Below are positions 1 to 61,951 of a stretch of DNA of 64,000 bases, one piece after another (the stretch's first letter is position 1; each line of letters starts with the position of its first letter). The translations under genes were made by a program, and so were the position numbers. The notes beneath the pieces were generated by a model. It searched no databases. It saw nothing but the letters and a program-made list of their open reading frames with translations, and had not been told where the DNA came from. Source of the stretch: Hygrophila difformis (lineage: Eukaryota > Streptophyta > Magnoliopsida > Lamiales > Acanthaceae); contig JAOANR010000015.1 in the NCBI GenBank assembly GCA_030278955.1, positions 37,294,487 through 37,358,486 of the forward strand, written 5' to 3'.

Positions 1-2454
1 CATGAAACTTTTGACAATTTCCGACACACGAGTATTTTCTAAAACATCAAGTTTGAATTTATTAAATGAAAAGAGTTATGATTTATGAAAGGGGTTTAAG
101 GATATATTAAAGTTGTCACTTTTTTTATTACTCGTGTAGGAAACTGTGGCCCGAAAGCGCACGGTGTCAAAAATTGCAGTAATTTATAGTAAGACCGGAT
201 CATTCACTGGAGGATGTGCGATAGAAGCAGGGCCCATGTCGTTTACTAAGATTTTCCACTCGGTTACTCATTTCAGGTTTTGCATTGGTTTCTAACAACT
301 ACTTGACATAATTTAAACTAAATTATGAAAGCAGTAAAATTATTCTACAAAGCACAATAAAATTAGTCTAAAAAACAATTAAATTTATTCTAAGAAAGCA
401 GTGAAAATTACACTAAGAAAGCAGATAAAATTATTCTACAAAAGCAGATTTAAAATGTGACAGAAGGGACAGGAAGAAAATAATAAAGATTGGACAAGAT
501 TTCAGATGAAACAATAATTAAACTTCCATTTTTGTTACACAGATCTTTGGTTGGAATAATTCATCGGTCAGCTAACTCTCATGCTTTCTAATTGTGTTCC
601 CTTTAACAGACAGGTACTTATAATCAGAATTTACATGCTCTTAAGACCTCAATTTCTAAGATACCACAGATTAATAACTCCCCCTGCCGAGGTATGTTAT
701 TTCTCCATGGTGGATAAGCAACACCCAACACAATCATTAGTTGACATGCCGAGTACTCCTATCATCACCCTTGTCACACCCAAAGTCTAAATTAAGATCC
801 CGAACTAATCCACAACTCTTAAACCTTACAACCGGCGGCTAACCTCTAATTCTTCCGAGTGACCTATATAAAATCATTTAAACGAAAGCGGTAAAGAAAA
901 CAGTAAAGAAAGCATTTAAAAACCTATCACTCGGAAGTTTCGAAAGCTATCTCATTCCGTTAGTATAAAAGAGCCCCTGGTCTTGGTGACCAGATGCAGA
1001 TTTAGAACTTCCCAAATATCAGTAAGCCATAGGGCTTATAACTTCCGGTTAGTTATGAGATACAAACTGAGTGGAACAGACCTGTGAAGATCTATTCCGA
1101 ATGTACTCACTCAAGACTCAATGCTAGGCTTTGGTGGGAGATGATAGTAGTTGAAAGAATAATCAACCCTACCTTAGGAATTAACCAAGGCCTATATGTT
1201 GTTCCTCTAGTATTACTTATCTCATCTTATCTGAATCCAAGTGGACACTGATTCAATGCAATAGCTAATATCAGATTTCCAACACACAGTAATTTTGAGA
1301 AAACAATTGATATTTGAAAATCATTCCCTACACAGGTACTAGACTCTCAATTAAAATACAGATCCTTTCAGTCTTGATGAGACCTAATCGCTGACTCTGC
1401 ATCTAGTTTCCCAAAATCAACCCCAGTAGAAGATGAATTAGTCATAACTGTGAAATTATCCCTTACTTAGATCTGGATTTTATAAAGTGGTTTTTGTGGA
1501 AATTTATTATGTAGCATCTGATTTAGATCAAGACTTCTATGTCCAAGGAGAAGGATCTCCAAAATAATAATACCACAATAGCTACATAATAATAGCATGC
1601 ATACATGTGTATGAGAAATAAAATAAAATACCCCTAAATATATGGTGGGATTAGACAGAATTCGATACACAAAGATGGATTAGCCTTGAGAAAAGAAGAA
1701 TTTGGCTAAAAAGAATGCCAGAAATAACTGGGGTTATCTGGACTGCAAACATCTGCCATCCAGTTCCCAATTATTCCAGATTGAATGATTTTTAGATAGT
1801 AAGGAACCCTTAATGACAGTGATCGCTATCATCAAGAGTTTTACTATCCATGAGAGAGTAAAAACCCACATGGTTTCCTACTACAGTACTATTAGAACAG
1901 TGTTGATTGACACTGTCTATTATTACCATAACTCGAAATTCAGGTTGAAATTAAGATAAAGAGAAGAAAACTGTATCTAATTAGGAATTGGCTGAGTGGC
2001 GAATCGTTATCCCCGTGAAGGGACCTTTTTGCCGGAGCTTCCACCAATCACTAATCAGACCATGCAAAATAACGAGTAATAATTAATACACTGAAGACGA
2101 GTTAATCGTTATCCCGGTGAAGGAACCTTTTTGCCAACATTGATCTGTGATATTCCTTGATACCCATTCATACACACACTTAACGAGAAAATATGAAATT
2201 AAAAGAATATTTTTGGGTATTGTGTAAGTATCAATCACACAATAATTTAGACACTAATGGGTTGAGATGCGTAATGGATAAAATTAGATGCAATGGGCCT
2301 AAGCCCAATACATCCATGCAACTTACACAACTCAGGAATATAAACCGAATTGACTACTGGTTTAGGTGCAATATAAACCGAATTGACTATGCATGAGAAA
2401 TGAAGTATTGTCTTACCCAATTAATCATTGCAAGGATGTGAGATAACATCTTCT

Positions 2455-2930
2455 AATTCGGTTTGTCTAGCAATTCGATATAAACCGAATTGGACAAACC
2501 GAATTGATGGGGTTATCCCCTTACTCAAATTTGGCTAAGGCATTTGCTTCAAAAGGAGTGTTTAATTTGATTTAACAGGGTAATTCGGTATAGACCGAAT
2601 TTGGCAAATCGAATTGGTTTAACAAGAAAAATAAACTAAGGCATGAAGGGATGATAAAGCATACAATGTGGTTTCCAAGTCAATTCGGTCTATATGTGCA
2701 ATTCGGTATAAACCGAATTGCATGGACCACATGAAATGAACAAACAACATTTTTATCATGCAATTCGGTCTTCATAGGCAATTCGGTATATACCGAATTG
2801 CCTTAGACCGAATTGCATGTAATTTTCACACAAGGAAATAAACAAACATTTTACCATGCAATTCTATCTTCATGGGCAATTCGGTGTAGACCGAATTGCC
2901 TTAGACCGAACTACATGCCTTTTTTCACAT
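2455..2930. repeat. Element A hairpin zone 1: nested AATTCGGT palindromes
   Basis: At least four units combine an inner palindrome with outer complementary arms. The clearest has outer arms GCAATTCGGTC (2760-2770) and GACCGAATTGC (2806-2816) around a perfect 26-bp palindrome at 2777-2802, whose half is GGCAATTCGGTAT. Another has outer arms AATTCGGTTTGTC (2455-2467) and GACAAACCGAATT (2493-2505). Related units lie at 2580-2617, 2681-2722 and 2868-2912, with decay in some arms. The zone lies downstream of the element's predicted minus-strand TATA box, so it should be transcribed. Confidence 0.9.
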
Positions 2931-11845: not shown

Positions 11846-12190
11846 AATTCGGTCTCCTCAAACAATTCGGTATAGACCGAATTGATGCATATCGAATTGC
11901 ATGAGGTCTCTCTTCCTTGATCTTTGGCTGGGATGTGGTCTTCAATATCAATTCGGTTTAAGTGTAGACCGAATTGAATGTGTCGAATTGCTCATGGTCT
12001 CCTGCTTGGCTTCCTTGTCTTGAATCATTCGGTCTATGCAATCAATTCGGTGTAAACCGAATTGCATAGACCGAATTGGGCATCTTGCTTCTCCTCTCAA
12101 CACTTTGTCTATTTTTCTTCTTTATTCTTCAGCAATTCGGTCTATATGGGCAATTCGGTGTAAACCGAATTGCCTAGACCGAATTGCCTT
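11846..12190. repeat. Element A hairpin zone 2: nested AATTCGGT palindromes
   Basis: This zone uses the same core as zone 1 but lies upstream of the predicted promoter. The unit at 12027-12076 has a perfect 16-bp outer stem (ATTCGGTCTATGCAAT against ATTGCATAGACCGAAT) around CAATTCGGT..ACCGAATTG. The unit at 12132-12187 has outer arms GCAATTCGGTC and GACCGAATTGC. Weaker units occur at 11846-11915 and 11948-11995. Confidence 0.88.
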
Positions 12191-20008: not shown

Positions 20009-20520
20009 CCCACGTCGCAAGACAAATATTACGTCGTGATCCTAGGATCACGACGTGGGGGGCTAGCGACATGATAGGTGGGTAGAAGTATTTTGGAATT
20101 TTGGAAATAATGGGGTTTTCCCATCCCAATGGATAAAAATTACGTCGTGAACCTAGGTTCACGACGTGAGTCTTGCGACGGGGATGTTAGAATTGTGAAA
20201 TTTTGGGTTTTGAAAAAGACGAGGTTCACGTTGCAAGACTATAAATTACGTTGTGAACCTAGGTTCACGACGTGAGTCCTGTGACGGGAAAATTTTATAA
20301 AAAATTTTCCAGAGTTCCGCTTCACGTCGCAAGGGTGAAAATTACGTCGTGACCCGTGGGATCACAACCTTAGTCTTACGACGTGAGAAATTTGCAAAAT
20401 TTTGAAGAGATTTGGGTCTTACATCGCAATGCAAAAATTATCTCGTGATCCGTGGGATCACAACGTGAGTATTACGTCGCAACCCGTGGGGTTACGACGT
20501 GATGCATTGCAATGTAAGAA
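20009..20520. repeat. Element C hairpin zone 1: GTCGTGA palindromes
   Basis: Perfect 26-bp palindromes lie at 20031-20056 (half ACGTCGTGATCCT) and 20142-20167 (half ACGTCGTGAACCT). Weaker units are at 20247-20272, 20343-20382 and 20431-20500. Outer arms include TCACGTCGCAAG/CTTACGACGTGAG around the fourth unit. The zone starts right after AATTTGGCAAAAAGGGTGCC, the same flank that precedes zone 1 in B. Confidence 0.9.
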
Positions 20521-26129: not shown

Positions 26130-26177
26130 TAGTGGCGCCGTCTGTGGGAATCTATCAAGATCAGAACAATTGTTTCC

Positions 26178-30498: not shown

Positions 30499-30542
30499 AG
30501 ACCTGGGTGTGTTTGAACACATATGCAGACAAGGTGGAGAAT

Positions 30543-31007: not shown

Positions 31008-31055
31008 TAGTGGCGCCGTCTGTGGGAATCTATCAAGATCAGAACAATTGTTTCC

Positions 31056-35382: not shown

Positions 35383-35426
35383 AGACCTGGGTGTGTTTGA
35401 ACACATATGCAGACAAGGTGGAGAAT

Positions 35427-35891
35427 TGTGAATTGTGTCTGCACATGTGTGAGTAGTTAGCTGTTAAAGGTTGTAACTGTTACAAAGAAGAAGTTAGTTA
35501 CAGTTATTTCTTGGCTATCAGAATATATGACGAAGTACAATCAGAATAAATGATGAAGTACAAGAGAGTATATACTATAGTATAATGAGAGCATATGATG
35601 AAGTTATAGATAGTATATACTGGAGTGGAAAAATCTCAGTAAGGGTTCACGAGAGTTCGTAACATTCACAAGAGGTGTTTAGGATTACATGCTTGGAGTT
35701 CAATTAGAGATTATAGAGCTGAGGTTATTCTTGCTAATTGAGAGAGACACTCTATTGTAATCATCTTGATCTTGTGAAAAGAAAAGTTGCTGTTGTGTTC
35801 CCGTGGATGTAGATCCAGTGTGATAGAACCACGTATATCTTTGTGTTCTTATTGTTCTTGTTCTTGTGTTTGAGTGTGTGAGTTTTACAAC
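35427..35891 (+). repeat. Copia array LTR 3
   Basis: About 465 bp, shared between units 2 and 3, near-identical to LTR 2. Confidence 0.88.
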
Positions 35892-35939
35892 TAGTGGCGC
35901 CGTCTGTGGGAATCTATCAAGATCAGAACAATTGTTTCC

Positions 35940-40267: not shown

Positions 40268-40311
40268 AGACCTGGGTGTGTTTGAACACATATGCAGACA
40301 AGGTGGAGAAT

Positions 40312-40777
40312 TGTGAATTGTGTCTGCACATGTGTGAGTAGTTAGCTGTTAAAGGTTGTAACTGTTACAAAGAAGAAGTTAGTTACAGTTATTTCTTGGC
40401 TATCAGAATATATGATGAAGTACAATCAGAATAAATGATGAAGTACAAGAGAGTATATACTATAGTATAATGAGAGCATATGATGAAGTTATAGATAGTA
40501 TATACTGGAGTGGAAAAATCTCAGTAAGGGTTCACGAGAGTTCGTAACATTCACAAGAGGTGTTTAGGATTACATGCTTGGAGTTCAATTAGAGATTATA
40601 GAGCTGAGGGTATTCTTGCTAATTGAGAGAGACACTCTATTGTAATCATCTTGATCTTCTGAAAAGAAAAGTTGTCGCTGTGTTCCCGTGGATGTAGATC
40701 CAGTGTGATCGAACCACGTATATCTTTGTGTTCTTATTGTTCTACTTCTTGTGTTTGAGTGTGTGAGCTTTACAACA
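40312..40777 (+). repeat. Copia array LTR 4 (outer right)
   Basis: About 466 bp ending TTTACAACA before ATAGT, after which host sequence resumes. Confidence 0.87.
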
Positions 40778-40782
40778 ATAGT

Positions 40783-42432
40783 GATTTGAACTTGATTTTT
40801 TCTGCCCCAGTCGCCACATGCACTTGTAATTGTGTTCTTCAGCTGAGGGAGGTCGAGAATCATGCAAAGAAAAACAAAATTAGGAAAACTTCTAACTGCT
40901 ATCCATCTCCATCTCGGTAAGTCTTTTTTATCCTGGACGTTCTTCTCCCTCAGTTCGAATTTGGGTTTCCATTATTATTTTGTATAACGTTATTTGAAAG
41001 ATATTTTAAAATAGTTTGCATTTGGTTTCGTGTTAATTTTTTTGTGAATTTTTCATTTTAATAAAATCATACCGCCCCCTGTTGAGATTCCTGGTTTCGC
41101 CACTGTGTAAAAGTTATGTAAAATATATATTCCAAAACCATACAACTAAACGAATCTAACAACACCGAACTCGATTATTTTTTCTTAATATATACTTACA
41201 ATAATATTGAGTTAAAGTTGAACAATGAATAGTGTTAAAACGTCAAACATGACATCTGATATGGGAAGGGAGAGTATAAAAATGAAAATTATGAAAATTT
41301 GATATTTTAAATCTATGAATTTTAACGAATGCAACAAAATCCCATTTGACTATATTTTATTTTATATAATTGTATTAAGAAGTCGATCAAAGTTACTCAA
41401 TAAATAGTAAATACTATGCAAACGTAACAATTAAAAAAAACAGCTGTAGTATTTATAAAAACATGTAATTATAGACGGTCAAAATTTAGTAAACCTACGT
41501 TACTTTATTTTATATATTTTTTCTGTCCCAGAATGATGCCAAAACTCGACATATGTACCTATATTAGTACAGTGATCCATATATATTTGTACCTATATTT
41601 TTATAATTAGTATGTGACAATGCTGGAGAAAACCGAGGCCACCAAAAGCCAAGAAGCTTGTCTGGGAAACCAGAAAACTGCCAAGAGGCTGGTTGTAGAC
41701 TGTGTGTTATTGGTGGCGGTTTGATGAACGAGCTTAATGAACAAGAAACCTAGATGAATTACTGTTGTATTGAAATTCTATATATGAGCAAATCGTACTG
41801 ACTGATACATTAATAAAACCTAATTAAAGACCTAACCAAACACGTGTAAGCAACTTTACTTTAAAGGTAACACTTTCTGTGCAGAAGACTAAATTAAACC
41901 CCAATCTTATTAATAGCGTTGGGCCTTATAAATGGAAAACAAAAACCCAAATATCTACTTAAGTTTTGAGAAATTCTAAAAAAGTCTCGGATTAATTGTA
42001 TTAGCCTAATCCGCTTCTATGAATGTTAATTATGGCCCAAACTGATAGCAGTCGATTTTGACAGTTATTTTCATCCATTTTCGTGTCTTCGACATGAGAA
42101 TAAAATCACATTTTAGGGTAATGTGTATAATCGAACAAATAAATTGAGCAAAAATTTATATTTTTGCGGTGAAATTATTTTGCAATGAAATTATATGAAT
42201 TAAACATAATTTGGTAGAAAAAGCATGAAAAATCCAAAATGATGACAAACGTGGCTAAGTATTTGTTGTAGGTTTGAGTTACAAGCTGTGTCGCGCAAAG
42301 GAAATCCGAGCTAGGAAAGTCATTCATGGTTCGCACCACTTCCCGGAATCCATTGGGCAAGTCAGCAACCCGACGCTCATTGCCATAGCCACCGTCGGCC
42401 ATCTCCCTCATCGCCGGCAGCCATTTACCAGC
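40783..42432. other. Host-like spacer between the Copia array and the minus-strand Copia element
   Basis: Continues the host module interrupted by the array (GATTTGAACTTGATTTT..GCCACATGCACTTGTAATTG). A short open stretch with ATG at 40862 ends at a strong donor-like G|GTAAGT (40917-40922), but no second exon was found. CCTGGTTTCGCCACTG near 41085 looks like a hAT right end. 42260-42432 is GC-richer and continues at 61952, after the element; its nature is unknown. Confidence 0.4.
41101..41275. mobile_element. Decayed relative of the Copia-array Stowaway
   Basis: TTATGTAAAATATATATT..CTCGATTATTTTTTCTTAATATATACTTACAATAAT..GTCAAAC is clearly homologous to the middle and right half of the 260-bp MITE. 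It ends in a degraded GGGAAGGGAGAG. The left end is missing. Confidence 0.7.
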
Positions 42433-42437: not shown

Positions 42438-42693
42438 TGTTGGGGATTGGATATGAAGTGAAAGAAGAAATTGAACAATGAATTTTCTTTAAGACAGGCT
42501 GCAGCCTTTTCGATTGTACTGAATATTTTTCTTGATACAATCACTTGTGTGTACAGCTCTTTTTATAAGTGCAATTACAAGTGATGAAATAATTAAATAA
42601 AAGACATACAATAAATATTATTGAAGAAAGGCTGCTACTTAGGAAAGAACCGAAGAGCTTGTCTGCTTGGGAATTACAAATTAACATTTAACA
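42438..42693 (-). repeat. Copia D 3' LTR
   Basis: TGTTGGGGATTGG..CATTTAACA on the plus strand. It differs from the other LTR at about 42452, 42501 and 42585. Confidence 0.95.
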
Positions 42694-42702
42694 TCCCCTC
42701 TT
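42694..42702 (-). other. Copia D polypurine tract
   Basis: AAGAGGGGA on the minus strand, directly before the 3' LTR and overlapping the stop codon of pol. Confidence 0.85.
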
Positions 42703-42783: not shown

Positions 42784-45518
42784 TGAAACTTTTGACAAAT
42801 TTCATTAACACGAGTATTTTTCAATAAAATATATCAGGATTGAATTTATTAAATGAAAGGATGTTATGAATCGTGGGAAAGGGGTTTAAGGATATATTCC
42901 ACTTTTTTATTACTCAGGTGGGGTGCTTTAATTTCAAATGGCGCTGCAGTCCTCTCATGTCATGAAACTTTTGACAAGTCTCATGGTACAACCGGGATAG
43001 ATTGACCTTCAGCCTGTCACACTGAGGGTCCCCGGCATATGTGCCATGATACTTCTCATGATTTCATGTCATGAGATTACCTACCATGAAACTTTCGGCA
43101 GATTCCCACTATATGAGTATTTTCTGAAAAATCACATTTTTATTTACTCGTGTTAAGAAACTGTGCCACCGAAAGCGCACGGAGTCAAAAATTGCAGTAT
43201 TTATAGTAAGTACCGGATCGTTCACTGGAGGATGTGCGATGGAAGCAGGGCCCTCGCCGTTTACTAAGATTTTCCACTCGGTTACTCGATTCAAGTTTGT
43301 GATTGAATTACCAACTACTTGACATAATTTAAACTAAGCTATGAAAGCAATTAAAATAAAGCAGATAGAATTATTCTAGAAAGCGAATTAAATTCAATCT
43401 AAGAAAACAATAAAATTATTCTAAGAAAGCGGTTAAAATTATCTACGAAAGCAGATTTAAATTGAGACAGAAGGGACAGGGAGAAAATAATAAAGATTGG
43501 ACAAGATTCAGATGAAACACAGTTAAACTTCCATTTTGTTACACAGATCTTTGTTTGGGATAATCCTTCCAGACAGCTAACTCTCATGCTTCCTATACCA
43601 TGTTCCCTTTAACAAACAGGTACTTACAGTAAGGATTTACATGCCTTAAGACAGCAAAATCTAAAATACCACAGACTCACAACTGCCCTCACACGGCCGT
43701 GTGGAGGCATGTTATTCATCTGTGGTGGACAAGCAACACCTGACAAATCATTTATTGAAGTGGCAAGTACCGCTATCATTCCCCCATGTCACACCCAAAG
43801 ATTCTAACCAAGCTCTGAACTATCCCTTAACTCTCAGTCCTAGTAGCAGTTACACAACTCTCAATACAACCGAGTGACCTCTAACGAAAGCATTTAAAAG
43901 AAAGCGGTAAAGAAAGCATTTAAAATCCTATCACTCGGAGGTTTTTTGAAAGTTTGACCCTGGTAGTAAAAGAAAGCCCCCGGTCGGAATGACTGGATGT
44001 GGATCAAGAATTCCCTAATCTCGGTGAACCGCTCGCAGTGTTCACCTCCCGTCGGGTGGTTATGAGATACAAACTAATGAAACGAACTAACAAATTAGTT
44101 CGTTCCGGATGCACTCACTCAGGACTCAAAAATAGGCTTTGGCAGAAGAGGATAGCAGTTGAAAGAATGCTCAACCCTACCTTAGAAAATAACCAAGGCC
44201 CGAATGTTGTTCCTCTAGTATTATCTGTCACACCTTATCGGAATCCAAGTGGAATCTGACCCAGTGCAATATTTAATACAAGATTTCCAACAAATAGCAA
44301 TTTTGGAAATTAATAAATCTGAAAATCATTCCCTAAACAGGTACTAGACTCTCAATTAAAACACAGATCCTTTCAGTCTAGATGAGACCTAATCGCTGAC
44401 TCTGCTTCTAATTTCCCAAAATCAACCCCCAGTCGGATATGAATTAGTCATAACTGTCGAATTTATCCCTTACTCAGATCCGGATTTTATAAAGGAATTT
44501 TTGTTGGAAATTTATTATGAGACATCTGATTAAAATCAAGACTCCTGTATCCAAGGGAAGGATCCCAAAATAATATTGACCACAATATCTACATAATAAT
44601 ATCATGCATAAATTTATAGAGAAGTGTAAAATTAAATAACCCAAAATATAAGGTGGGTTTAGACAGAAGCTGATACACAGAGATGAAATAGCCGGAGATG
44701 AGAAGAATTTATTTGGTTAAAAAGATGACTGAAATAACTGGGGTTATCCGGACTGCAAACATCTGCTATCCAGGTCCCAACTATTCCAGATGGAACGGTT
44801 TTTAGATGGTGAAATTCCCTAAATGACAGTTGCCACTGTCATCTTAAACTCCACTATCTGTGAATTTGGATAAAAACCCACATGTTCTATCACTGCAATA
44901 ATTATTAGATGACATTGGCAAATATCATCTAACATTACTACAGATCCAGATTCGGGTTTGAAATTAAGATAAAGAAAAGAAAACTGTATCCGGATAGGGG
45001 TCAGCTGAGCAGCTATTATAATCCCGGATGGACTAACCGCCAAGGCTTCCACCGACCACTATTCGGACCATGCAAAATAACATTTAATAATTAATATACA
45101 GACCACGAGCTAGTTATCCGTGTGGGAATACCCGCCAACATTAATCTGATATATTCCTTATTAGCTGTTTCACACATCACAGAAAAGACAAAATAAATAA
45201 AAGAAAAATATTTTTGGGTCATCTTGCATGAGAGACATTGGTTTCTCATGCAAGGTATGAAAATCAATCCATAATCACTCTTCAAGTCTAAATAATCACT
45301 CATTCCATAATTAATTAATTACAGTCCGGACTATATACTTAGATCATTAGAGTTTAATCCTTTTGTAGAAGAATCTTTTAATGGGAAATTGAAAAAAATT
45401 CTTTATATCAAATTAATCATGGGTTGAGATCATTGGATTTCAACCTCAAAATATTAATATAAAGGTTCAATTAATTAATGGAGTGAGATGAAGAATAAAA
45501 ATTTGGCAAAAAGGTGCC

Positions 45519-46204
45519 ACTTTGTCGCGGAATAGAGTTTGTGTCGCGGACCATGGGTCCGCGACAAGGGTTTCGCGACAAAGGGGTGGGAAATAAGAGG
45601 AATGGAATATTTTGAAAATTAGGGTTTGCTTTGTCGCTAAGCAAAAATTTTGTCGCGGAACATGGTTCCGCGACAACGAGGTATAGCGACAAAGGGTTGA
45701 AAATTGGTAAGGACATAATTCCTGGTCGCGGAATAAGGATTTTGTCGCGGTCCGTGGTTCCGCGACAGAGTCCTCCCAGAATAAAATTACAAGTATTTGG
45801 GTCCTTGGTCGCTAATCAAGGATTTTGTCGCGGAACGTGGTTCCGCGACAAGAGTTGCATCGCGACCAAGGGGTTTCAAATTTAATGGCAAGGCATAATT
45901 TTCTGTCTCGGAATAAGATTTTGTCGCGGAACGTGGTTCCGCGACAAGGGTATTCCGCGACAAAAGCCATGCAGACAAAATGCAAGAATTTGGTTCTTTG
46001 TCGCTAAACATGAGTTTTGTCGCGGAACGTGGTTCCGCGACAAAGGTTGCATCGCGACAAAGGGTTTCTTAAAAATTTTTTATAAAAATTTTGACAGCAT
46101 AACGCCTAATATTGCATTACATGGGTGTGCGTTGTGATCCGTGGGATCACAACGGGAAAAATTACATTGCAACCCGTGGGGTTGCAACGTGATGCAATAC
46201 AATA
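45519..46204. repeat. Element B hairpin zone 1 (3' LTR)
   Basis: Six GTCGCGG units at about 90-120-bp spacing. Inner stems include TGTCGCGGACC/GGTCCGCGACA (45542-45566) and TGTCGCGGAAC/GTTCCGCGACA (45651-45675, and near 45828, 45921, 46018). Outer arms include CTTTGTCGC/GCGACAAAG (units 1, 2, 6) and CCTTGGTCGC/GCGACCAAGG (unit 4). A final unit at 46107-46204 has a different core: TTGTGATCC/GGGATCACAA and TTGCAACCC/GGGTTGCAA within TATTGCAT..ATGCAATA arms. Confidence 0.93.
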
Positions 46205-46867
46205 TAGGAATATGCAATTTTTATAAACATACATAAACACTTTAATATATACCCCTTTTAGATCTAATGCACAAGAAAGAGAAAATAAAAATTAACAAAA
46301 GTACCTAACACTAAAAAGGACAAGAACAGTAAAGTAGGAACAAGAAAGAGACTTAAACTAGAGCATAAAGCAAAAATACAAACACACTATACTAACACTA
46401 AAAATAAAAATAAAATAAAATAAAACCTACATTAAATCTATCAAGGGTAAATATCAAGTGTTTATGCATTTATTAAGCCTAATAAAGCATTAAACCTAAC
46501 TAAAAATAATAAAAATGGTCAAGTGACCAAAAATACAAAAATAAAGCAATAAACATTATGGGAGATCCATAACACATTTTTGGTGGAACATTTTCTTTAT
46601 AACATCAAAAACCAAAAATGGGTTAAACACACCCATTGATTAAGTGTTTTCAACCCAAAAATACAAAATATAAAACTGGAAAATAAAATGAACACTAGCT
46701 ACACTTATTTATTACAAAGCATAAATTAAACTAAGCTAAGATCTACTACATTGCATAAAATAAATAAAACTATCTACCTACACTAATTTTGGAGAGCACA
46801 GTGGTGCCTCCAAAACAGTGAAATAAACTAAAGTGTAGCTAGGTTACTGTTCAAGTGGGTGGGAGGA

Positions 46868-46877
46868 TATATTTATA
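46868..46877 (-). promoter_or_regulatory. Candidate TATA box of element B (3' LTR copy)
   Basis: TATAAATATA on the minus strand within CTCTATAAATATATCC, between zones 2 and 1. It is conserved in C. Confidence 0.55.
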
Positions 46878-46913
46878 GAGTAGGATTAAGCCCTAGGCCC
46901 ATTAGGCCCACTG

Positions 46914-47300
46914 TGTCGCTAAACAAATATGCCTTGTCGCGGAACAAATTCTGCTTCAGGACACACTTTTTAGCTCCAGGATGGCGCGCAGGAGGGGGCG
47001 GGACTTGAGGTCCAAGGGGAAGAAGACAAAAAATCCATGCTTGCGGGAGCTGAGGTCCCTGGACCTCCCGAGTCTTTTAACATGTGGAAAATTTGAATAA
47101 ATGAGGTCACGTGACCTGTCTCTGTCGCGGTGTAGCTGCTTTGTCTTGGTCGCGCTCCACTTTGTCGCAGAACCATGTTCCGCGATAAAATTTTGTGCCT
47201 TGATTCTCCTCTCACAGTCTCGGAATAATTTTTGGGCGCGGAGCATTTTTTTGGTCGCGGAGCATTTTGTCGCGATGTACTGCTCCGCGACAAAGGGTTA
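46914..47300. repeat. Element B hairpin zone 2 (3' LTR)
   Basis: GTCGCGG-type pieces upstream of the TATA box: TTGTCGCAGAACCATGTTCC.. (47162-47187), GGTCGCGGAGCATT..TGTCGCGATG..CTCCGCGACAAAG (47253-47295) and single arms at 46914, 46934 and 47122. In this copy the 47165 palindrome has lost pairing through G-to-A and C-to-T changes that the 5' LTR copy does not have. Confidence 0.85.
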
Positions 47301-47539
47301 GTTTTCTCCCTCTCTCTTCCATTTCTCTTTCCCAAATTCTTACAGCTTCTTCCATTCTTTCTTTCCTCCATTTCTTTTCTTTTCCAGTTTCGTTTCTTCC
47401 TCCTCTTCTATTTTCTCTTCTTGTTTTCTTCTTTTCAAAATTCCTCTTCTCCTTCGTTTCTTCTTCCTATTTTTTTTTTTCCAGTTCTCTCATTTTTTCT
47501 TCTTCCCCCAAATTTCTTTTTCTCGTTTCTTTCTTCTTG

Positions 47540-48290
47540 TTTTCTGCATTTGGGGCTGTCGGAGTGGGGCGGAGGTGGTCGGAAACAGATGCGGATGAGA
47601 GGGTGGATTTGAGTTGGTGGAGGCGATGGCTGGAGTGTGGAGGTGTGCAGCGGCTGCTGCTGCTCTCGGAGGAGGAGTGACGGGAAGATGAAGGCGGTGA
47701 TTTTGGGGGTTTTGATTTGTTTTTTGGGGGTTTTGTGGTGTTGGAATGGTGGTATTGCAGCGGCGGGGACGATGAGGGGCTCTCCGGAGTTGATTGAACT
47801 CTCGTCGGATTTGGTTGATGGGGAAAAGAAATGATGGTGGCAGTGGAGGGGGTCGCCGGAGGTTGGTGGTGCGACGGCGGTTTTGAGGTTGGAGGTGTCG
47901 GAAATGGAGGAGATGGGGTGGTTGTGTTCGATTTGGGATGGAGGGCGAGTGGAGGTTGATGATGGGGTTGAAGGGGGCGACGGGAAAGATGGCTTTCTGG
48001 GGGCGGCGGCCGGAACATTGGTTGGAGGAATGGAGGAGATGGAATGGAGAGGATGGTCGGAGGGATGAGGATGGTCGGATGTGGGGGTGTTGGCCGCCGG
48101 AGTATTGGTGGAGAGGGGCGGAGATGGCGGTCGGATGGAGGAGAGGATGAAAATGGTTGGCGACTGGAGGTGGTTTGGCTGGTCGGAGACGGCCGCCGGC
48201 CGGCGGTGGCGGCGCCGGCGGCTGGGAATGGTGTTAGGGTTAGGGTTGGTTTTAGGTTTTGGTGGTTTCGGCTTGGGGTTGGTAAGGGCT
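47540..48290. repeat. GC-rich block of LTR B
   Basis: GGA/GGT/CGG-biased on the plus strand. In the sense direction it is CCG/CCA/TCC-rich and opens a Pro/Ser/His-rich frame of about 180 codons. A TTAGGGTTAGGGTT telomere-like pair is at 48234. The frame is altered by indels in the other LTR copy, so it is treated as non-coding. Confidence 0.6.
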
Positions 48291-48851
48291 AATGAAATTG
48301 GGCCTGGAGTTAATTAGTGCAATGGGCTTCCAGATTGGATTTTTAATTGCTGGGCCAAATCAAATTGGACTGGATTCACATTGGATTATTGGACTGGACC
48401 ATACCTGTAATTAATTTAAATTAACAGTAATTAGTGGACCATTTAATTTTTAATTATAGCAGAAAACATAAATAAAAATAAGTAAACATAAAAACTAAAA
48501 ATATATACATCAAAATATAAAATAATATAAATATAATATTTATTCCACTTGATTATTAGGTTTGTGTTCCATTCAAGGAATCCGTGTTCCACCGAATAGA
48601 CAACACCGAACCAAAATTAATCAAGTGTATGGTTTTTAATATTTTTATCATGTTTTTGGATTTTTTAATATAAATTTAATAAAAATAACAATATTTTTGT
48701 ATTTTTCAATACCAGCTTATTATTTATACAAACTTGCATAAATCTGCTAAATTCAACTGCTTTCTTATTTAAATAAGACCGGAATGCGATCAAATGTCCG
48801 TATTAGACACGGAAATAGATTGAAAATAATGGTCAATTTTGGCCATTATCA

Positions 48852-48865
48852 ACATCCTCACATTT
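48852..48865 (-). other. Element B polypurine tract
   Basis: AAATGTGAGGATGT on the minus strand, abutting the 3' LTR. It is purine-rich but interrupted by T, and the same sequence recurs three times inside the internal domain. Confidence 0.6.
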
Positions 48866-50293
48866 AATACTGATCGTCCCCGAGCAGTCAGAGTCAGTGC
48901 TCCTAAGAGCATAGACGCTGCATATTCAATCTATTTGCGTGGCTTTAAAAATTTCATTCTTTTTAGATTGGGATAAGACAATCAAAAACTACAAGTATTA
49001 AATTCTCTTGATTGCAGTGTTTAATAAAATGATACTTCTCACTTAATCAGGCCTACAAATCAGTCATTATTGATAATTCTTCATGAAGATCATGTTCAGA
49101 AAAATTCCTTGATTTAATTCTAGAATTAAAGCATGACATGAACATAAATATCAAATCGGAGCCTCACATATAGTGGAAACGGAAATTTCACTCACTCTCA
49201 AAAAGGGGTTTTATCAATGAGCACTCATAATCAAATTTAATTAAATTATCCCATAAGCTCGCAATTAGACCAACTCGCCACCGGCTCATTTCTTTAAATC
49301 GAGATCATGAGGTCTTATTTAAGGGTTATAACGGGGCGTACGGTTGTAACATTTGGTAGGCGAGGGAATTTATTGGGTTAAGAAGTGACAAGAATTTATT
49401 TATCATAACATGGCATTATTTTCTTTAAAAATTTATGATCATCAATATATTTTTCTTTTTCTTTCTTTTGCTTTCTTTTTCTATTGCATGACATTAAACT
49501 ATGTCTAATTTGCTCTGTCAATTGCAATTTATTTGTGTTGAATTGAATTGAATTCAACATTTTTCTCTTCTTTTTTTTTTTAAATCGGTTTATTGAATAC
49601 CGATTTATACATCTTTGATGATCACAAATTCAATGCCTTGATAAAATTCATTCTTGCCCACTTGGGTTTGAATTTCTTGGTCTTTTTAGAAGGCTTTGAA
49701 TAATATAGAGGGCTCCAAAGAAAAATTAGGCTTAAGGCTCAAAGTGGTTAATCCTAAAGGGAAAATATTTTTGGGTTTGGATTTCAAAAGAAGGCCAAAA
49801 TTTTGATTTTCTAGGTGCCTCGATCATATGCTCGATTTTTGGAATATGGCATAGTCTTGAATCGGTCCCAATAGCAAGTTCTAGTTTCCTTTAATCAAAA
49901 TGATTTTCACACATCAAAGAAAAGAATGAGTAAAAATGACTCATGGCTCAAATCTCACATGGAATGGTTCATTCATGTCATACAATATTCATAAATATAA
50001 TCTTTGAATAATTCTTACAATCTGTTCAATTAAATTCTCAACATGAAGACTCATTGCCCAACAAGATGATGATATCATTAAATTTTTATAGCTCAAAACC
50101 TCAAAAATTCATATCATGCATGTCTTCAATTATATTATCCCAATTTAAAAGTTTGAAAATTTAATCATAAACCAAAATCAAATATGTGAATTCTTAGACA
50201 GAGTTATGCATGCTTTGCACTGGGTTTAAATATGTAAAATAATAATAAAATAAACAAAGAGAAAAATAACACACACTTTTTTTTTTGAGATAT

Positions 50294-50364
50294 TTAAGTA
50301 AAGAATCAACATCCTCACATTTTGAGCCTTGCTCGAAATGTGAGTCAATCAGTTCCTACTTAAA
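50294..50364. repeat. Internal two-tier hairpin 1 of element B
   Basis: Inner stem CTCACATTTTGAG/CTCGAAATGTGAG (one T-G wobble) inside a TTTAAGTA/TACTTAAA outer stem. It includes the polypurine-like motif. Confidence 0.75.
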
Positions 50365-50805
50365 CAAATTTTTGAAATCAAACTAGAATAAAAGAGGAGG
50401 GAGGGAGGGGGAAAATATTAACATAAAAGATAGAAAAATAATTCCGATAGCCTTTTTCGTCAAACCAATTAAATGTTCGACGATTTTGGCTATGTGTGAT
50501 CGTTTGGTTCGTCGAACAAGGCGATTGTTCGATGCCCAATACTTAAGAAAAATTCTGATTTTCATCAAAATTGTTCAATCACATTTTTGAATTTTATAAA
50601 ATTTAATCTACTATATTTCCTTGCATAAATTAGGTTGGATTAATTCTGTTCTTATAAAAGTTATTCCGGATTTTAAATTGCTTTAAATTCCAGGAATACT
50701 TTCAATTAATCACAGAATCGATCCAACCGGGAACCTGTTTTGGAGCTTTAATTTTCTTTTTGGTGATTCCACAAATTCCTGCAGAGCAAACACAGAAGAA
50801 GTTAT

Positions 50806-50886
50806 CGGGTTTTCTCAATAATATCAACATCCTCACATTTAGAGTCTTAGTACTCTAAATGTGAGTTAATTGATTAATACCCGAAT
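50806..50886. repeat. Internal two-tier hairpin 2 of element B
   Basis: Inner perfect 14-bp stem CTCACATTTAGAGT/ACTCTAAATGTGAG (50832-50865) with outer CGGGT/ACCCG pairing. Confidence 0.8.
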
Positions 50887-51527
50887 TATTTGATATAATA
50901 TGCACAAGAGATATATGTATAAATATATGTATATACATATATATGATTTTGACTTGCAGAAATTTAGGTTGGATTAATTCTGTGCTTGTGAAAATTATTC
51001 CGGACTTTATATTTCTTTAAATTCCGGATATAATCTTCGGTCAATTACAGAACTAACCCAACCGGGAACCTGTTTAGATGCTCAATCGGGACAGGGGCGA
51101 CGGAGAGTGAGATAGTGGCCGTGGCTTGTCCGATGGTGGTGAGCAATTGGTAGTCCGAAGATCTGCTACTCCATTTGTTGTTTCACCAGTGATGAGGGTT
51201 CCCTCAGCGCAGTGGTGGTAATGAGGTGGATGGGCGGTGGAGCAGCGGTGGAGCTTCGTGGTCCGGATGTGGTGGAGATGACAAACACGTGAGTCTCACG
51301 TGTTGTGCAATTTACAATTGCAAATTAGTGTAGCCCCAATGCTACACTTCTCCATTTTTCTTTGATTTTTTGTTTAATTAACCTAGATTTTGCATTTGGG
51401 AAAGTGTAATTAAACGAAAATCAAAGTAGTGTAGCCCCAATGCTACACTTCCACATTTAACTCCTTACACCAATTTTTGTGGCTCCATGATTCCTGCAAA
51501 ACAAAATACACAATTGGTTAGGTTTTC

Positions 51528-51593
51528 CCCTCAAATCAACATCCTCACATTTAGAGTCTTGGTACTCTAAATGTTTAATTGATTTGAGGGTAC
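51528..51593. repeat. Internal two-tier hairpin 3 of element B
   Basis: Inner ACATTTAGAGT/ACTCTAAATGT and outer CCCTCAAATCAA/TTGATTTGAGGG, both perfect. Confidence 0.82.
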
Positions 51594-51684
51594 TTCTCTG
51601 TTCTGAAATGAATACATTAAACTAACACTAAACTAACTATGAGTAATCAGGAGTGCAATTCTCTTAATAAACGACGCTGCATCC

Positions 51685-51702
51685 TCCCCGGCAACGGCGC
51701 CA
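51685..51702 (-). other. Element B primer-binding site (tRNA-Asp)
   Basis: TGGCGCCGTTGCCGGGGA on the minus strand, directly next to the 5' LTR at 51703. It is complementary over 18 bases to the 3' end of plant tRNA-Asp as I recall it, including CCA. Confidence 0.9.
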
Positions 51703-54437
51703 TGAAACTTTTGACAAATTTCATTAACACGAGTATTTTTCAATAAAATATATCAGGATTGAATTTATTAAATGAAAGGATGTTATGAATCGTGGGAAAG
51801 GGGTTTAAGGATATATTCCACTTTTTTATTACTCAGGTGGGGTGCTTTAATTTCAAATGGCGCTGCAGTCCTCTCATGTCATGAAACTTTTGACAAGTCT
51901 CATGGTACAACCGGGATAGATTGACCTTCAGTCTGTCACACTGAGGGTCCCCGGCATATGTGCCATGATACTTCTCATGATTTCATGTCATGAGATTACC
52001 TACCATGAAACTTTCGGCAGATTCCCACTGTATGAGTATTTTCTGAAAAATCACATTTTTATTTACTCGTGTTAAGAAACTGTGCCCCCGAAAGCGCACG
52101 GAGTCAAAAATTGCAGTATTTATAGTAAGTACCGGATCGTTCACTGGAGGATGTGCGATGGAAGCAGGGCCCACGCCGTTTACTAAGATTTTCCACTCGG
52201 TTACTCGATTCAAGTTTGTGATTGAATTACCAACTACTTGACATAATTTAAACTAAGCTATGAAAGCAATTAAAATAAAGCAGATAGAATTATTCTAGAA
52301 AGCGAATTAAATTCAATCTAAGAAAACAATAAAATTATTCTAAGAAAGCGGTTAAAATTATCTACGAAAGCATATTTAAATTGAGACAGAAGGGACAGGG
52401 AGAAAATAATAAAGATTGGACAAGATTCAGATGAAACACAGTTAAACTTCCATTTTGTTACACAGATCTTTGTTTGGGATAATCCTTCCAGACAGCTAAC
52501 TCTCATGCTTCCTATACCATGTTCCCTTTAACAGACAGGTACTTACAGTAAGGATTTACATGCCTTAAGACAGCAAAATCTAAAATACCACAGACTCACA
52601 ACTGCCCTCACACGGCCGTGTGGAGGCATGTTATTCATCTGTGGTGGACAAGCAACACCTGACAAATCATTTATTGAAGTGGCAAGTACCGCTATCATTC
52701 CCCCATGTCACACCCAAAGATTCTAACCAAGCTCTGAACTATCCCTTAACTCTCAGTCCTAGTAGCAGTTACACAACTCTCAATACAACCGAGTGACCTC
52801 TAACGAAAGCATTTAAAAGAAAGCGGTAAAGAAAGCATTTAAAATCCTATCACTCGGAGGTTTTTTGAAAGTTTGACCCTGGTAGTAAAAGAAAGCCCCC
52901 GGTCGGAATGACCGGATGTGGATCAAGAATTCCCTAATCTCGGTGAACCGCTCGCAGTGTTCACCTCCCGTCGGGTGGTTATGAGATACAAACTAATGAA
53001 ACGAACTAACAAATTAGTTCGTTCCGGATGCACTCACTCAGGACTCAAAAATAGGCTTTGGCAGAAGAGGATAGCAGTTGAAAGAATGCTCAACCCTACC
53101 TTAGAAAATAACCAAGGCCCGAATGTTGTTCCTCTAGTATTATCCGTCACACCTTATCGGAATCCAAGTGGAATCTGACCCAGTGCAATATTTAATACAA
53201 GATTTCCAACAAACAGCAATTTTGGAAATTAATAAATCTGAAAATCATTCCCTAAACAGGTACTAGACTCTCAATTAAAACACAGATCCTTTCAGTCTAG
53301 ATGAGACCTAATCGCTGACTCTGCTTCTAATTTCCCAAAATCAACCCCCAGTCGGATATGAATTAGTCATAACTGTCGAATTTATCCCTTACTCAGATCC
53401 GGATTTTATAAAGGAATTTTTGTTGGAAATTTATTATGAGACATCTGATTAAAATCAAGACTCCTGTGTCCAAGGGAAGGATCCCAAAATAATATTGACC
53501 ACAATATCTACATAATAATATCATGCATAAATTTATAGAGAAGTGTAAAATTAAATAACCCAAAATATAAGGTGGGTTTAGACAGAAGCTGATACACAGA
53601 GATGAAATAGCCGGAGATGAGAAGAATTTATTTGGCTAAAAAGATGACTGAAATAACTGGGGTTATCCGGACTGCAAGCATCTGCTATCCAGGTCCTAAC
53701 TATTCCAGATGGAACGGTTTTTAGATGGTGAAATTCCCTAAATGACAGTTGCCACTGTCATCTTAAACTCCACTATCTGTGAATTTGGATAAAAACCCAC
53801 ATGTTCTATCACTGCAATAATTATTAGATGACATTGGCAAATATCATCTAACATTACTACAGATCCAGATTCAGGTTTGAAATTAAGATAAAGAAAAGAA
53901 AACTGTATCCGGATAGGGGTCAGCTGAGCAGCTATTATAATCCCGGATGGACTAACCGCCAAGGCTTCCACCGACCACTATTCGGACCATGCAAAATAAC
54001 ATTTAATAATTAATATACAGACCACGAGCTAGTTATCCGTGTGGGAATACCCGCCAACATTAATCTGATATATTCCTTATTAGCTGTTTCACACATCACA
54101 GAAAAGACAAAATAAATAAAAGAAAAATATTTTTGGGTCATCTTGCATGAGAGACATTGGTTTCTCATGCAAGGTATGAAAATCAATCCATAATCACTCT
54201 TCATGTCTAAATAATCACTCATTCCATAATTAATTAATTACAGTCCGGATTATATACTTAGATCATTAGAGTTTAATCCTTTTGTAGAAGAATCTTTTAA
54301 TGGGAAATTGAACAAAATTCTTTATATCAAATTAATCATGGGTTGAAATCATTGGATTTCAACCTCAAAATATTAATATAAAGGTTCAATTAATTAATGG
54401 AGTGAGATGAAGAATAAAAATTTGGCAAAAAGGTGCC

Positions 54438-55123
54438 ACTTTGTCGCGGAATAGAGTTTGTGTCGCGGACCATGGGTCCGCGACAAGGGTTTCGCGACAA
54501 AGGGGTGGGAAATAAGAGGAATGGAATATTTTGAAAATTAGGGTTTGCTTTGTCGCTAAGCAAAAATTTTGTCGCGGAATATGGTTCCGCGACAACGAGG
54601 TATAGCGACAAAGGGTTGAAAATTGGTAAGGACATAATTCCTGGTCGCGGAATAAGGATTTTGTCGCGGTCCGTGGTTCCGCGACAGAGTCCTCCCAGAA
54701 TAAAATTACAAGTATTTGGGTCCTTGGTCGCTAATCAAGGATTTTGTCGCGGAACGTGGTTCCGCGACAAGAGTTGCATCGCGACCAAGGGGTTTCAAAT
54801 TTAATAGCAAGGCATAATTTTCTGTCTCGGAATAAAATTTTGTCGCGGAACGTGGTTCCGCGACAAGGGTATTCCGCGACAAAAACCATGCAGACAAAAT
54901 GCAAGAATTTGGTTCTTTGTCGCTAAACATGAGTTTTGTCGCGGAACGTGGTTCCGCGACAAAGGTTGCATCGCGACAAAGGGTTTCTTAAAAATTTTTT
55001 ATAAAAATTTTGACAGCATAACGCCTAATATTGCATTACATGGGTGTGCGTTGTGATCCGTGGGATCACAACGGGAAAAATTACATTGCAACCCGTGGGG
55101 TTGCAACGTGATGCAATACAATA
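54438..55123. repeat. Element B hairpin zone 1 (5' LTR)
   Basis: Same seven units as 45519-46204. One inner arm near 54578 has C-to-T (GGAATATGG), a mismatch-free loop change. Confidence 0.92.
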
Positions 55124-55786
55124 TAGGAATATGCAATTTTTATAAACATACATAAACACTTTAATATATACCCCTTTTAGATCTAATGCACAAGAAAGAG
55201 AAAATAAAAATTAACAAAAGTACCTAACACTAAAAAGGACAAGAACAGTAAAGTAGGAACAAGAAAGAGACTTAAACTAGAGCATAAAGCAAAAATACAA
55301 ACACACTATACTAACACTAAAAATAAAAATAAAATAAAATAAAACCTACATTAAATCTATCAAGGGTAAATATCAAGTGTTTATGCATTTATTAAGCCTA
55401 ATAAAGCATTAAACCTAACTAAAAATAATAAAAATGGTCAAGTGACCAAAAATACAAAAATAAAGCAATAAATATTATGGGAGATCCATAACACATTTTT
55501 GGTGGAACATTTTCTTTATAACATCAAAAACCAAAAATGGGTTAAACACACCCATTGATTAAGTGTTTTCAACCCAAAAATACAAAATATAAAACTGGAA
55601 AATAAAATGAACACTAGCTACACTTATTTATTACAAAGCATAAATTAAAGTAAGCTAAGATCTACTACATTGCATAAAATAAATAAAACTATCTACCTAC
55701 ACTAATTTTGGAGAGCACAGTGGTGCCTCCAAAACAGTGAAATAAACTAAAGTGTAGCTAGGTTACTGTTCAAGTGGGTGGGAGGA

Positions 55787-55796
55787 TATATTTATA
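55787..55796 (-). promoter_or_regulatory. Candidate TATA box of element B (5' LTR copy)
   Basis: TATAAATATA on the minus strand. This is the copy that would drive full-length transcription, toward lower coordinates. Confidence 0.55.
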
Positions 55797-55832
55797 GAGT
55801 AGGATTAAGCCCTAGGCCCATTAGGCCCACTG

Positions 55833-56219
55833 TGTCGCTAAACAAATATGCCTTGTCGCGGAACAAATTCTGCTTCAGGACACAGTTTTTAGCTCCAGGA
55901 TGGCGCGCAGGAGGGGGCGGGACTTGAGGTCCGAGGGGAAGAAGACAAAAAATCCATGCTTGCGGGAGCTGAGGTCCCTGGACCTCCCGAGTCTTTTAAC
56001 ATGTGGAAAATTTGAATAAATGAGGTCACGTGACCTGTCTCTGTCGCGGTGTAGCTGCTTTGTCTTGGTCGCGCTCCACTTGTCGCGGAACCATGTTCCG
56101 CGACAAAATTTTGTGCCTTGATTCTCCTCTCACAGTCTCGGAATAATTTTTGGGCGCGGAGCATTTTTTTGGTCGCGGAGCATTTTGTCGCGATGTACTG
56201 CTCCGCGACAAAGGGTTAG
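55833..56219. repeat. Element B hairpin zone 2 (5' LTR)
   Basis: Same layout as 46914-47300, but the palindrome at 56081-56107 (TTGTCGCGGAAC..GTTCCGCGACAA) is intact here. Confidence 0.85.
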
Positions 56220-57751
56220 TTTTCTCCCTCTCTCTTCCATTTCTCTTTCCCAAATTCTTACATCTTCTTCCATTCTTTCTTTCCTCCATTTCTTTTCTTT
56301 TCCAGTTTCGTTTCTTCCTCCTCTTCTATTTTCTCTTCTTGTTTTCTTCTTTTCAAAATTCCTCTTCTCCTTCGTTTCTTCTTCCTATTTTTTTTTCCAG
56401 TTCTCTCATTTTTTCTTCTTCCCCCAAATTTCTTTTTCTCGTTTCTTTCTTCTTGTTTTCTGCATTTGGGGCTGTCGGAGTGGGGCGGAGGTGGTCGGAA
56501 ACAGATGCGGATGAGAGGGTGGATCTGAGTTGGTGGAGGCGATGGCCGGAGTGTGGAGGTGTGCGGCGGCTGCTGCTGCTCTCGGAGGAGGAGTGACGGG
56601 AAGATGAAGGCGGTGATTGATTTTTGGGGGTTTTGTGGTGTTGGAATGGTGGTATTGCAGCGGCGGGGACGATGAGGGGCTCTCCGGAGTTGATTGAACT
56701 CTCGTCGGATTTGGTTGATGGGGAAAAGAAATGATGGTGGCAGTGGAGGGGGTCGCCGGAGGTTGGTGGTGCGACGGCGGTTTTGAGGTTGGAGGTGTCG
56801 GAAATGGAGGAGATGGGGTGGTTGTGTTCGATTTGGGATGGAGGGCGAGTGGAGGTTGATGATGGGGTTGAAGGGGGCGACGGGAAAGATGGCTTTCTGG
56901 GGGCGGCGGCCGGAACATTGGTTGGAGGAATGGAGGAGATGGAATGGAGAGGATGGTCGGAGGGATGAGGATGGTCGGATGTGGGGGTGTTGGCCGCCGG
57001 AGTATTGGTGGAGAGGGGCGGAGATGGCGGTCGGATGGAGGAGAGGATGAAAATGGTTGGCGACTGGAGGTGGTTTGGCTGGTCGGAGACGGCCGCCGGC
57101 CGGCGGTGGCGGCGCCGGCGGCTGGGGATGGTGTTAGGGTTAGGGTTGGTTTTAGGTTTTGGTGGTTTGGGCTTGGGGTTGGTAAGGGCTAATGAAATTG
57201 GGCCTGGAGTTAATTAGTGCAATGGGCTTCCAGATTGGATTTTTAACTGCTGGGCCAAATCAAATTGGACTGGATTCACATTGGATTATTGGACTGGACC
57301 ATACATGTAATTAATTTAAATTAACAGTAATTAGTGGACCATTTAATTTTTAATTATAGCAGAAAACATAAATAAAAATAAGTAAACATAAAAACTAAAA
57401 ATATATACATCAAAATATAAAATAATATAAATATAATATTTATTCCACTTGATTATTAGGTTTGTGTTCCATTCAAGGAATCCGTGTTCCACCGAATAGA
57501 CAACACCGAACCAAAATTAATCAAGTGTATGGTTTTTAATATTTTTATCATGTTTTTGGATTTTTTAATATAAATTTAATAAAAATAACAATATTTTTGT
57601 ATTTTTCAATACCAGCTTATTATTTATACAAACTTGCATAAATCTGCTAAATTCAACTGCTTTCTTATTTAAATAAGACCAGAATGCGATCAAATGTCCG
57701 TATTAGACACGGAAATAGATTGAAAATAATGGTCAATTTTGGCCATTATCA

Positions 57752-61657: not shown

Positions 61658-61673
61658 CTTCTTTGGAAACCAA

Positions 61674-61946: not shown

Positions 61947-61951
61947 TCTCC

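Follow-up and report, generated by a model that had tools for sequence, protein, structure and literature searches.

Palindromic arrays at the same place of related long terminal repeats in Hygrophila difformis hold different words in a common layout

The window, a stretch of 64,000 nucleotides from Hygrophila difformis, contains an LTR element in minus-strand orientation, here called B, whose two LTRs of 6.07 kb are 99% identical. The element ends in TG...CA and is flanked on both sides by the 5-bp target duplication CTGGG. No open reading frame of at least 80 amino acids was found in its interior of 2.85 kb. The 5' LTR is abutted by the primer-binding site TGGCGCCGTTGCCGGGGA, which we take to be complementary to the 3' end of plant tRNA-Asp. 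Large retrotransposon derivatives (LARDs) likewise have LTRs of several kb, a non-coding interior with a primer site and a target duplication. B, with its long LTRs, target duplication and primer site and an interior without a long reading frame, is therefore a LARD-like, non-autonomous element. The primer site is also a possible lead towards the Athila clade of Ty3/gypsy elements; B itself has no coding region.

B was nested in a copia-type element with end repeats at 42438-42698 and 61691-61951 (98.5% identical) and long reading frames at 57749-59248 and 59249-61741 on the minus strand. The copia-type frame adjoining B had 7932 scored relatives, and among the 120 matches listed those with an organism name were from plants. 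The sequence AACATCCTCACATTT occurred four times in B, at 48851 (the 3' LTR junction), 50308, 50826 and 51538, three of them beside hairpins. These polypurine-tract-like repeats are reminiscent of the multiple polypurine tracts reported for Sireviruses. Elsewhere in the window, 25659-40783 holds three copia-type units in tandem. They repeat every 4.88 kb or so, are 98-99% identical and apparently have LTRs in common.

Two further LTRs, A-left (1-12518) and A-right (19537-23688), are related to those of B. A-left is split by a nested gypsy-type element (3149-11085), which has LTRs of about 2.96 kb with GC-rich palindromes in them and a gag domain in the reading frame 6634-7701. A 37-bp tandem repeat rich in GACGCGGAGC was seen at 22481-22587 in the A-right LTR. 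The features are collected in Table 1.

Table 1. Features of the window, with positions counted from its first letter, and words of the surveyed LTRs, with locus identifiers
Feature	Position or loci	Strand	Remarks
Element B, LARD-like LTR element	42784..57751	-	LTR identity, target duplication, TG...CA ends, ORF scan
Left LTR of B (sense: 3' LTR), carries array under study	42784..48851	-	
Right LTR of B (sense: 5' LTR), carries second array copy at +8919	51703..57751	-	
Primer-binding site TGGCGCCGTTGCCGGGGA, abuts 5' LTR of B	51685..51702	-	
Cluster 1 of B, six units	45519..46070	-	complete units F F R R
Unit 1, inner arms GGACC/GGTCC	45519..45586	-	
Unit 2	45628..45695	-	
Unit 3, mismatches in inner arms, lacks right outer arm	45720..45785	-	
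Unit 4, outer arms CCTTGGTCGC/GCGACCAAGG	45802..45872	-	
Unit 5, left outer arm mismatched	45899..45968	-	
Unit 6	45995..46064	-	
Stem enclosing two hairpins (46130-46154, 46164-46190), A-right-type word	46100..46208	-	
TATA-like CTATAAATA, common to B and A-right	46870..46878	-	alignment; in 62/68 family copies
Cluster 2 of B, cluster 1 word, mostly direct orientation	46895..47310	-	fold z -2.4, -0.1, -0.9
Second cluster 1 copy, other LTR of B	54438..54989	-	
A-left cluster 1, word CAATTCGGTATA	2337..2914	-	F F R R in most units
A-left cluster 2, A-left word	11846..12185	-	F F R R in 3/4 units
A-right cluster 1, word ACGTCGTGAACC, same layout	20009..20386	-	
A-right stem with two hairpins, alignable to 46100-46208	20417..20516	-	
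B word in 5 surveyed LTRs	L129, L131, L133, L137, L147		
V4 word TACGACGCTATCC in 5 surveyed LTRs	L130, L135, L136, L145, L148		
V3 word TGTCGTGAGACC/TGTCGCGAACC in 2 surveyed LTRs	L141, L142		
Word AATTCGGTATA in 2 surveyed LTRs	L132, L146		
V6 word AATTCGAATTG in 4 surveyed LTRs	L139, L140, L143, L144		

The array under study (45519-46204) lies inside the left LTR of B; such a palindrome array is not known to be part of the LARD definition. The first-pass annotation had described two-tier hairpins with inner near-perfect palindromes of about 25 bp and a second pair of arms outside them. Inner palindromes of 25-31 nt were indeed listed in 5/6 units; the third (45742-45768) has two internal mismatches and is absent from the palindrome list. 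The outer pair was also seen, as CTTTGTCGC/GCGACAAAG in units 1, 2 and 6 and in another form in unit 4; it was incomplete in unit 3 and had a mismatched left arm in unit 5. The two-tier array therefore exists, with two corrections. Both tiers consist of the same word, TTTGTCGCGGAAC, which a complete unit carries four times, as outer F, inner F, inner R and outer R. Moreover, 46100-46208 is a distinct structure with another word than the six-unit array. With up to one mismatch, 21 half-sites of the word were counted in cluster 1 of B. The hairpin loops of B in sense orientation are CAC or CAU and are not self-complementary. When viral and prokaryotic contigs were searched with one exact B-word hairpin pattern, no match was found.

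It had been suggested that the array be folded against shuffled sequence. Its folding was far better than that of the controls, with z of -18.4 (minus strand) and -20.8 (plus strand) and 0/20 shuffles as good on either. The LTRs were scanned in 300-nt windows on the minus strand with 40 shuffles each. The array of B was the top folding peak along its LTR (z -8.3 to -12.5), and cluster 1 was the strongest peak among the tested windows in all three LTRs, the lowest z being -12.5 in B, -9.9 in A-left and -9.6 in A-right. The observed/expected ratio of CpG was 1.58 in the array and 0.51 in the flank.

The units follow a common geometry: in a complete unit, words of 8-13 bp are arranged F F R R in a polar manner with nearly fixed spacing. 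An upstream outer arm was present beside the inner hairpin in 141/142 units of B (37 with shuffled flanks), 45/46 of A-right (22) and 69/71 of A-left (15). The downstream arm was found in 142/142 (37), 44/46 (24) and 57/71 (13), respectively. For the 6-base A-right word this threshold is loose, as the 22 and 24 of 46 shuffled flanks that pass it indicate. The left arm spacing exceeded the right in 141/141 two-armed units of B, 42/43 of A-right and 53/55 of A-left, in total 236/239, and likewise in 17/17 units with the V3 and 4/4 with the V4 word. In most units the left spacing was 17-21 and the right 13-17.

Beside the array, A-left and B were 78% identical on one flank, over 2.2 kb, and 82% identical in the last 0.2 kb of the opposite flank. 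For A-right and B the two flanks gave 76% and 69%. Their homology stopped at the array edge (20010/45518) and resumed inside the hairpin complex (20445/46134), with one 24-bp hairpin match as the sole exception in the gap. Despite these flanks, cluster 1 of A-right could not be aligned to that of B by BLAST. The 8-mers common among the three clusters 1 numbered 7, 13 and 12 at 16.2, 11.1 and 11.2 expected, which is background. The complex of B (46095-46210) shared 31 8-mers with its A-right counterpart (0.7 expected) and 19 with the A-right cluster 1 (1.6 expected). The A-right-type word is kept in B only at the right end of the array.

In B and A-left, the own word of each recurs about 0.7-1 kb from cluster 1, the nested insert not counted. 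Clusters 1 and 2 shared 63 8-mers in B (8.9 expected; highest of 200 Markov draws 20) and 58 in A-left (11.4 expected; highest of 200 draws 22). When cluster 1 of one element was compared with cluster 2 of another, the counts stayed within the Markov draws. For A-right, two candidate stretches had 16 and 7 shared 8-mers at 13.8 and 3.1 expected, again background. A-right has palindromes of another word at 21290-21990, on the upstream side of its TATA-like motif; one of them is GAACGGCCACATTTGGCCGTTC at 21917-21938. Word matches more than 1300 bases past the flank anchor were present in 34/38 long-fetched copies of B. In these the word had 251 F and 70 R orientations in cluster 2, and 371 F and 383 R in cluster 1. 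Cluster 2 of B barely folded beyond shuffles in three overlapping windows (z -2.4, -0.1 and -0.9); the word therefore recurs there without a hairpin. The A-left cluster 2 does fold (z -3.0, -8.2 and -6.5), and a further palindrome of the B word was found in the right-LTR cluster 2 at 56080-56106. Long overlapping minus-strand reading frames by cluster 2 (47435-48313 in B, 22235-23323 in A-right) had no Pfam match.

Between the two clusters, the minus strand carries a TATA-like motif, CTATAAATA in B and A-right and TATAAAAG in A-left. Among 68 family copies, taken as the 38 best array matches and the first 30 exact flank matches, it was present in 62 and absent from L015, L024, L038, L043, L074 and L075. 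From its position we infer that cluster 2 precedes the predicted promoter and that cluster 1 follows it at a distance of roughly 0.6-1.3 kb, within the presumed leader.

In the genome of 915 Mb in 246 contigs, the family proved to be very large. The 21-bp flank adjoining the array was found at 1720 places with up to one mismatch, and a flank pattern common to the three LTR types at 7348 places with up to two mismatches; both controls gave 0. Candidate places numbered 3458 for the B array, 3005 for the A-left and 316 for the A-right array, and 40 of each were scored. Words were then surveyed in 20 LTRs picked from 100 listed exact places, all on contig C1; the picks were made one per element and for flank variety, and their shares are not estimates of genome frequencies. 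Palindromic arrays were present in 18/20 of them, with best-window z of -4.7 to -16.4; L134 was without an array and L138 broke off after the first words. Five vocabularies were found among these chosen LTRs, six with that of A-right.

The V4, A-right, V3 and B words intergrade through arrays of mixed words. L082 and L083 have ACGACGTGATCC beside ACGTCGTGAACC-like units, with extra or exchanged units. In L094 and L117-L121 the left units have TGTCG words and the right units have ACGTCG words; L117-L128 had been chosen for a partial match to the A-right array, at 12/40 scored places. Taken together, the arrays at the same place of the LTR hold entirely different words between related families and keep their layout, which is new and suggests a recognition site that evolves fast. 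No title or abstract in the searched literature, which covered few subscription journals, described two-tier, polar, word-switching arrays in LARD-like elements. The arrays would go back to a single ancestor, with its word rewritten since.

One explanation for such rewriting is an arms race with small-RNA silencing, in which the hairpins are both sources and targets of siRNAs and a new word lets a family escape the older siRNAs. The Sirevirus palindromes of maize are described as small-RNA hotspots (PMC10760457, PMC5311732), and the words here differ where the flanks remain 69-79% identical. Yet such a race explains neither the keeping of symmetric arms nor the nearly fixed spacing, and we regard it as improbable.

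The first-pass annotation had also taken paired changes as a sign that the symmetry is maintained, by selection on RNA or DNA structure or by gene conversion between the arms. In the six B units of the window, 5/23 pairs were changed on both sides (shuffled mean 2.4; 16/500 shuffles reached 5), and 91.2% of the cells were paired, against 87.7% in shuffles (4/500) and 36-53% when the partner was slid. The two LTRs of B differed in 57 columns, 4 of them within the array, and were uninformative on pairing. The hairpin complex was aligned from 88 genomic loci, of which 23 with low coverage, including copies with a changed V1 word, were skipped; of the 65 usable loci 47 were distinct, and 2 rows from the window made 49. 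Here 93.1% of the cells were paired (shuffled 91.4%, 0/500 as high; slides 30-52%). Double-change cells numbered 33 against 12.2 in shuffles (0/500). The covariation score was 0.087 against 0.054 (0/500). The excess was less marked for pairs with a double change (5 against 3.4; 40/500). Further standard pair types spoke against a structure, with 13 observed and 14.1 in shuffles (498/500 as high), and the columns 70/84 were unpaired in 41/49 rows.

Arms were also swapped between copies and refolded. The rows were not selected by pairing, and the p values ignore shared ancestry and thereby overstate independence. For B (70 rows, of which 20-40 were distinct and 0-9 were dropped for length), the hairpins H1-H6 gave p of 0.0002, 0.0022, 0.94, 0.0032, 0.95 and 0.023, and V1 and V2, the hairpins with the old word, gave 0.0002 each; units 3 and 5 were thus without a signal. 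The A-right hairpins, in 20 fetched copies and that of the window, gave 0.0002, 0.0002, 0.0002, 0.013 and 0.0002 (n 21, 21, 20, 21 and 14). The A-left hairpins, sampled in the same way, gave 0.73, 0.12, 0.64, 0.27 and 0.94 (n 13, 20, 20, 19 and 21). In sum, native partners outdid swapped ones with p of at most 0.0032 in 5/8 hairpins of B and of at most 0.013 in 5/5 of A-right, and in none of the 5 of A-left. The genomic copies thus support a symmetry maintained by selection or by arm-to-arm correction, through the double-change cells and, in B and A-right, the arm swaps; A-left gave no signal. The A-left copies share one word, and most of their differences seem to be private decay. L104, L107, L108, L112, L113 and L115, all of them A-left copies, have insertions and small duplications at or close to the hairpin centres, as template switching would give.

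In cluster 1 of B the site diversity of the arms (inner 0.056, outer 0.067) was about half that of loops (0.136) and spacers (0.120). In A-right the arms were likewise less diverse, with 0.198 and 0.207 in inner and outer arms, 0.254 in loops and 0.315 in spacers. The arms of A-left were not less diverse (inner 0.074, outer 0.076; loops 0.085, spacers 0.071), and the V1 and V2 arms of B were more diverse than the spacers (0.225 against 0.120).

These data bear on neutral concerted evolution, in which template switching (quasi-palindrome correction) and unit exchange keep the symmetry and the shared words without any function. It is favoured by three V1 pairs that are each double-changed in 4/40 rows, together in L074 and L075, as block replacement gives, and by private microduplications and arm losses at the palindrome centres of A-left copies. 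The extra or exchanged units of L082 and L083, the lack of paired changes in A-left and the variable V1 and V2 arms fit it as well. The lower diversity of cluster 1 arms in B and A-right argues against it, although arm-to-arm conversion could lower arm diversity, too. So do the presence of arrays with several words in 18/20 chosen LTRs and the clusters 1 of A-right and B that cannot be aligned by BLAST between alignable flanks. We consider a purely neutral origin unlikely, while giving it some weight.

Under selection for pairing of the sense RNA, one would expect more tolerance of mismatches that form wobbles in the sense strand than of those that do so only in the antisense strand. In B, sense- and antisense-wobble cells numbered 321 and 326, and the types 23 and 14 (at least 4 rows) or 34 and 26 (1-3 rows). 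In A-right, the cells were 77 and 88 and the types 5 and 4. The gain of native over swapped arms on refolding was alike on both strands in 8 units and slightly larger on the antisense (plus) strand in 6/8. Wobble types and refolding on both strands thus gained nothing clear for a sense-RNA reading, the B types leaning to the sense side (23 against 14).

A selected RNA structure of the genomic transcript, for packaging, dimerisation or the control of reverse transcription, would have the polar two-tier hairpin as its unit and leave the sequence free. The folding peaks at cluster 1 of the three LTRs, downstream of the predicted TATA box, are consistent with it. So are the spacing asymmetry of one sense in 236/239 units of three families, the better refolding of native arms and the lean of the non-standard pair types of B. 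Against it, neither the cells nor the A-right types lean and the refolding gain does not follow the sense strand. A stem also needs neither one word for both tiers nor the recurrence of that word upstream of the promoter. We regard a structural RNA as improbable. Among the functions offered earlier, a packaging or dimerisation signal and a small-RNA source are without clear support because wobble types and folding gains lack a clear strand preference; a protein-binding array fits best.

The word upstream of the promoter, its use in both tiers and the lack of a clear strand preference lean towards a DNA-level site or a DNA-level correction; the polar spacing leans the opposite way. As the first choice, we tentatively read the array as a protein-binding regulatory array at the DNA level that evolves like the LTR palindromes of Sireviruses or the VANC target repeats, with a probability of about 0.42. 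The use of a single word in both tiers, for which an RNA stem has no need, was counted in favour of protein sites. Counted likewise were the same word in both clusters of B and A-left, with the direct orientation and scant folding of cluster 2 in B, and the arms of B and A-right that vary less than loops and spacers in spite of the CpG-rich array. The unalignable clusters 1 of A-right and B and the mixed words of L094 and L117-L121 were added to these. On the other side stand the unit polarity, which a symmetric dimer does not explain, the background-level word sharing of A-right and the folding of the A-left cluster 2 (z to -8.2). The A-left arms, as variable as spacers and without paired changes, the diverse V1 and V2 arms and the sense-wobble lean of the B types were also counted against protein sites, as was the fact that TATA box and start site are predicted.

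In a protein-binding array, the words would be sites of a sequence-specific, probably dimeric DNA-binding factor, encoded by the host or by an autonomous partner. This putative factor would control or protect the transcription of the element, as proposed for the Sirevirus palindromes and reported for VANC targets. Turnover of the words might come from co-evolution of the factor, or of silencing, with the sites. Changes could then spread to all arms by exchange of units and, as the element is reverse-transcribed, by template switching from one palindromic arm to another, and this spreading would keep the dyads. That cluster 1 forms hairpins so readily may follow from this and may in addition supply small RNAs.

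A bolder idea, the least probable considered here, is that the arrays are a family-specific recognition code, a polar grammar with exchangeable words. Its reader would be a cognate factor, or else homotypic pairing of RNA or DNA, and each non-autonomous family would be expressed or packaged only with its own kind. If true, a word replacement through all arms, from end to end of the array, would make new families independent. If the reading of the arrays is right, one genome holds an evolutionary series of a multi-arm palindromic code with changing words and a constant layout. The 7348 pattern matches would be material for testing what LTR palindromes are: sites for proteins, signals in RNA, sources of small RNAs or side products of template switching.

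Unlike Sireviruses, B has a primer site that we take to be of the tRNA-Asp type and no long reading frame. Because the primer site differs, membership among the Sirevirus features is not claimed for the array, and the site does not fit a Ty1/copia Sirevirus. Most Ty1/copia groups have tRNA-Met primer sites (PMC6317226). The LTRs of Sireviruses (Ty1/copia, SIRE) carry palindromic repeated motifs, the RM boxes (Bousios et al. 2010; PMC2829016), so the earlier statement that no named LTR feature has this form went too far. Their nature was left open in 2010 (PMC2829016), and they were later called highly variable (PMC5311732). As here, several copies of a dyad-symmetric, element-specific, CpG-rich word lie in the LTR. 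The RM boxes stand close upstream of the TATA box, which here is true of cluster 2, whereas cluster 1 is downstream of the predicted box. A CGG...CCG core is found in 12/13 published RM words, with one exception (PMC2829016); it is present in the B and A-left words and absent from the A-right, V4 and V6 words. In the published account the RM boxes also differ from our units with their polar spacing and their nesting in the order F F R R. For the Sirevirus trait of at least 8 dyad-symmetric word copies, B offers six inner palindromes in cluster 1 (5 listed) and the one at 56080-56106.

The subterminal repeats of CACTA elements are arrays of GCGAC-like words in both orientations, a property shared with our words. 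This candidate was dropped because the arrays lie within LTRs with homologous flanks, at thousands of places. VANDALs, which are DNA transposons, offer a further parallel. In Arabidopsis, the VANC targets of these elements are family-specific words that make up non-coding tandem repeats, the units of which diverge in concert (PMC5735166). A binding protein is known for VANC, and in that account the words are not described as nested palindromes (PMC5735166). In conclusion, what the VANC target repeats and the arrays described here have in common are short family-specific words that are alike within an element and different between relatives (PMC5735166).
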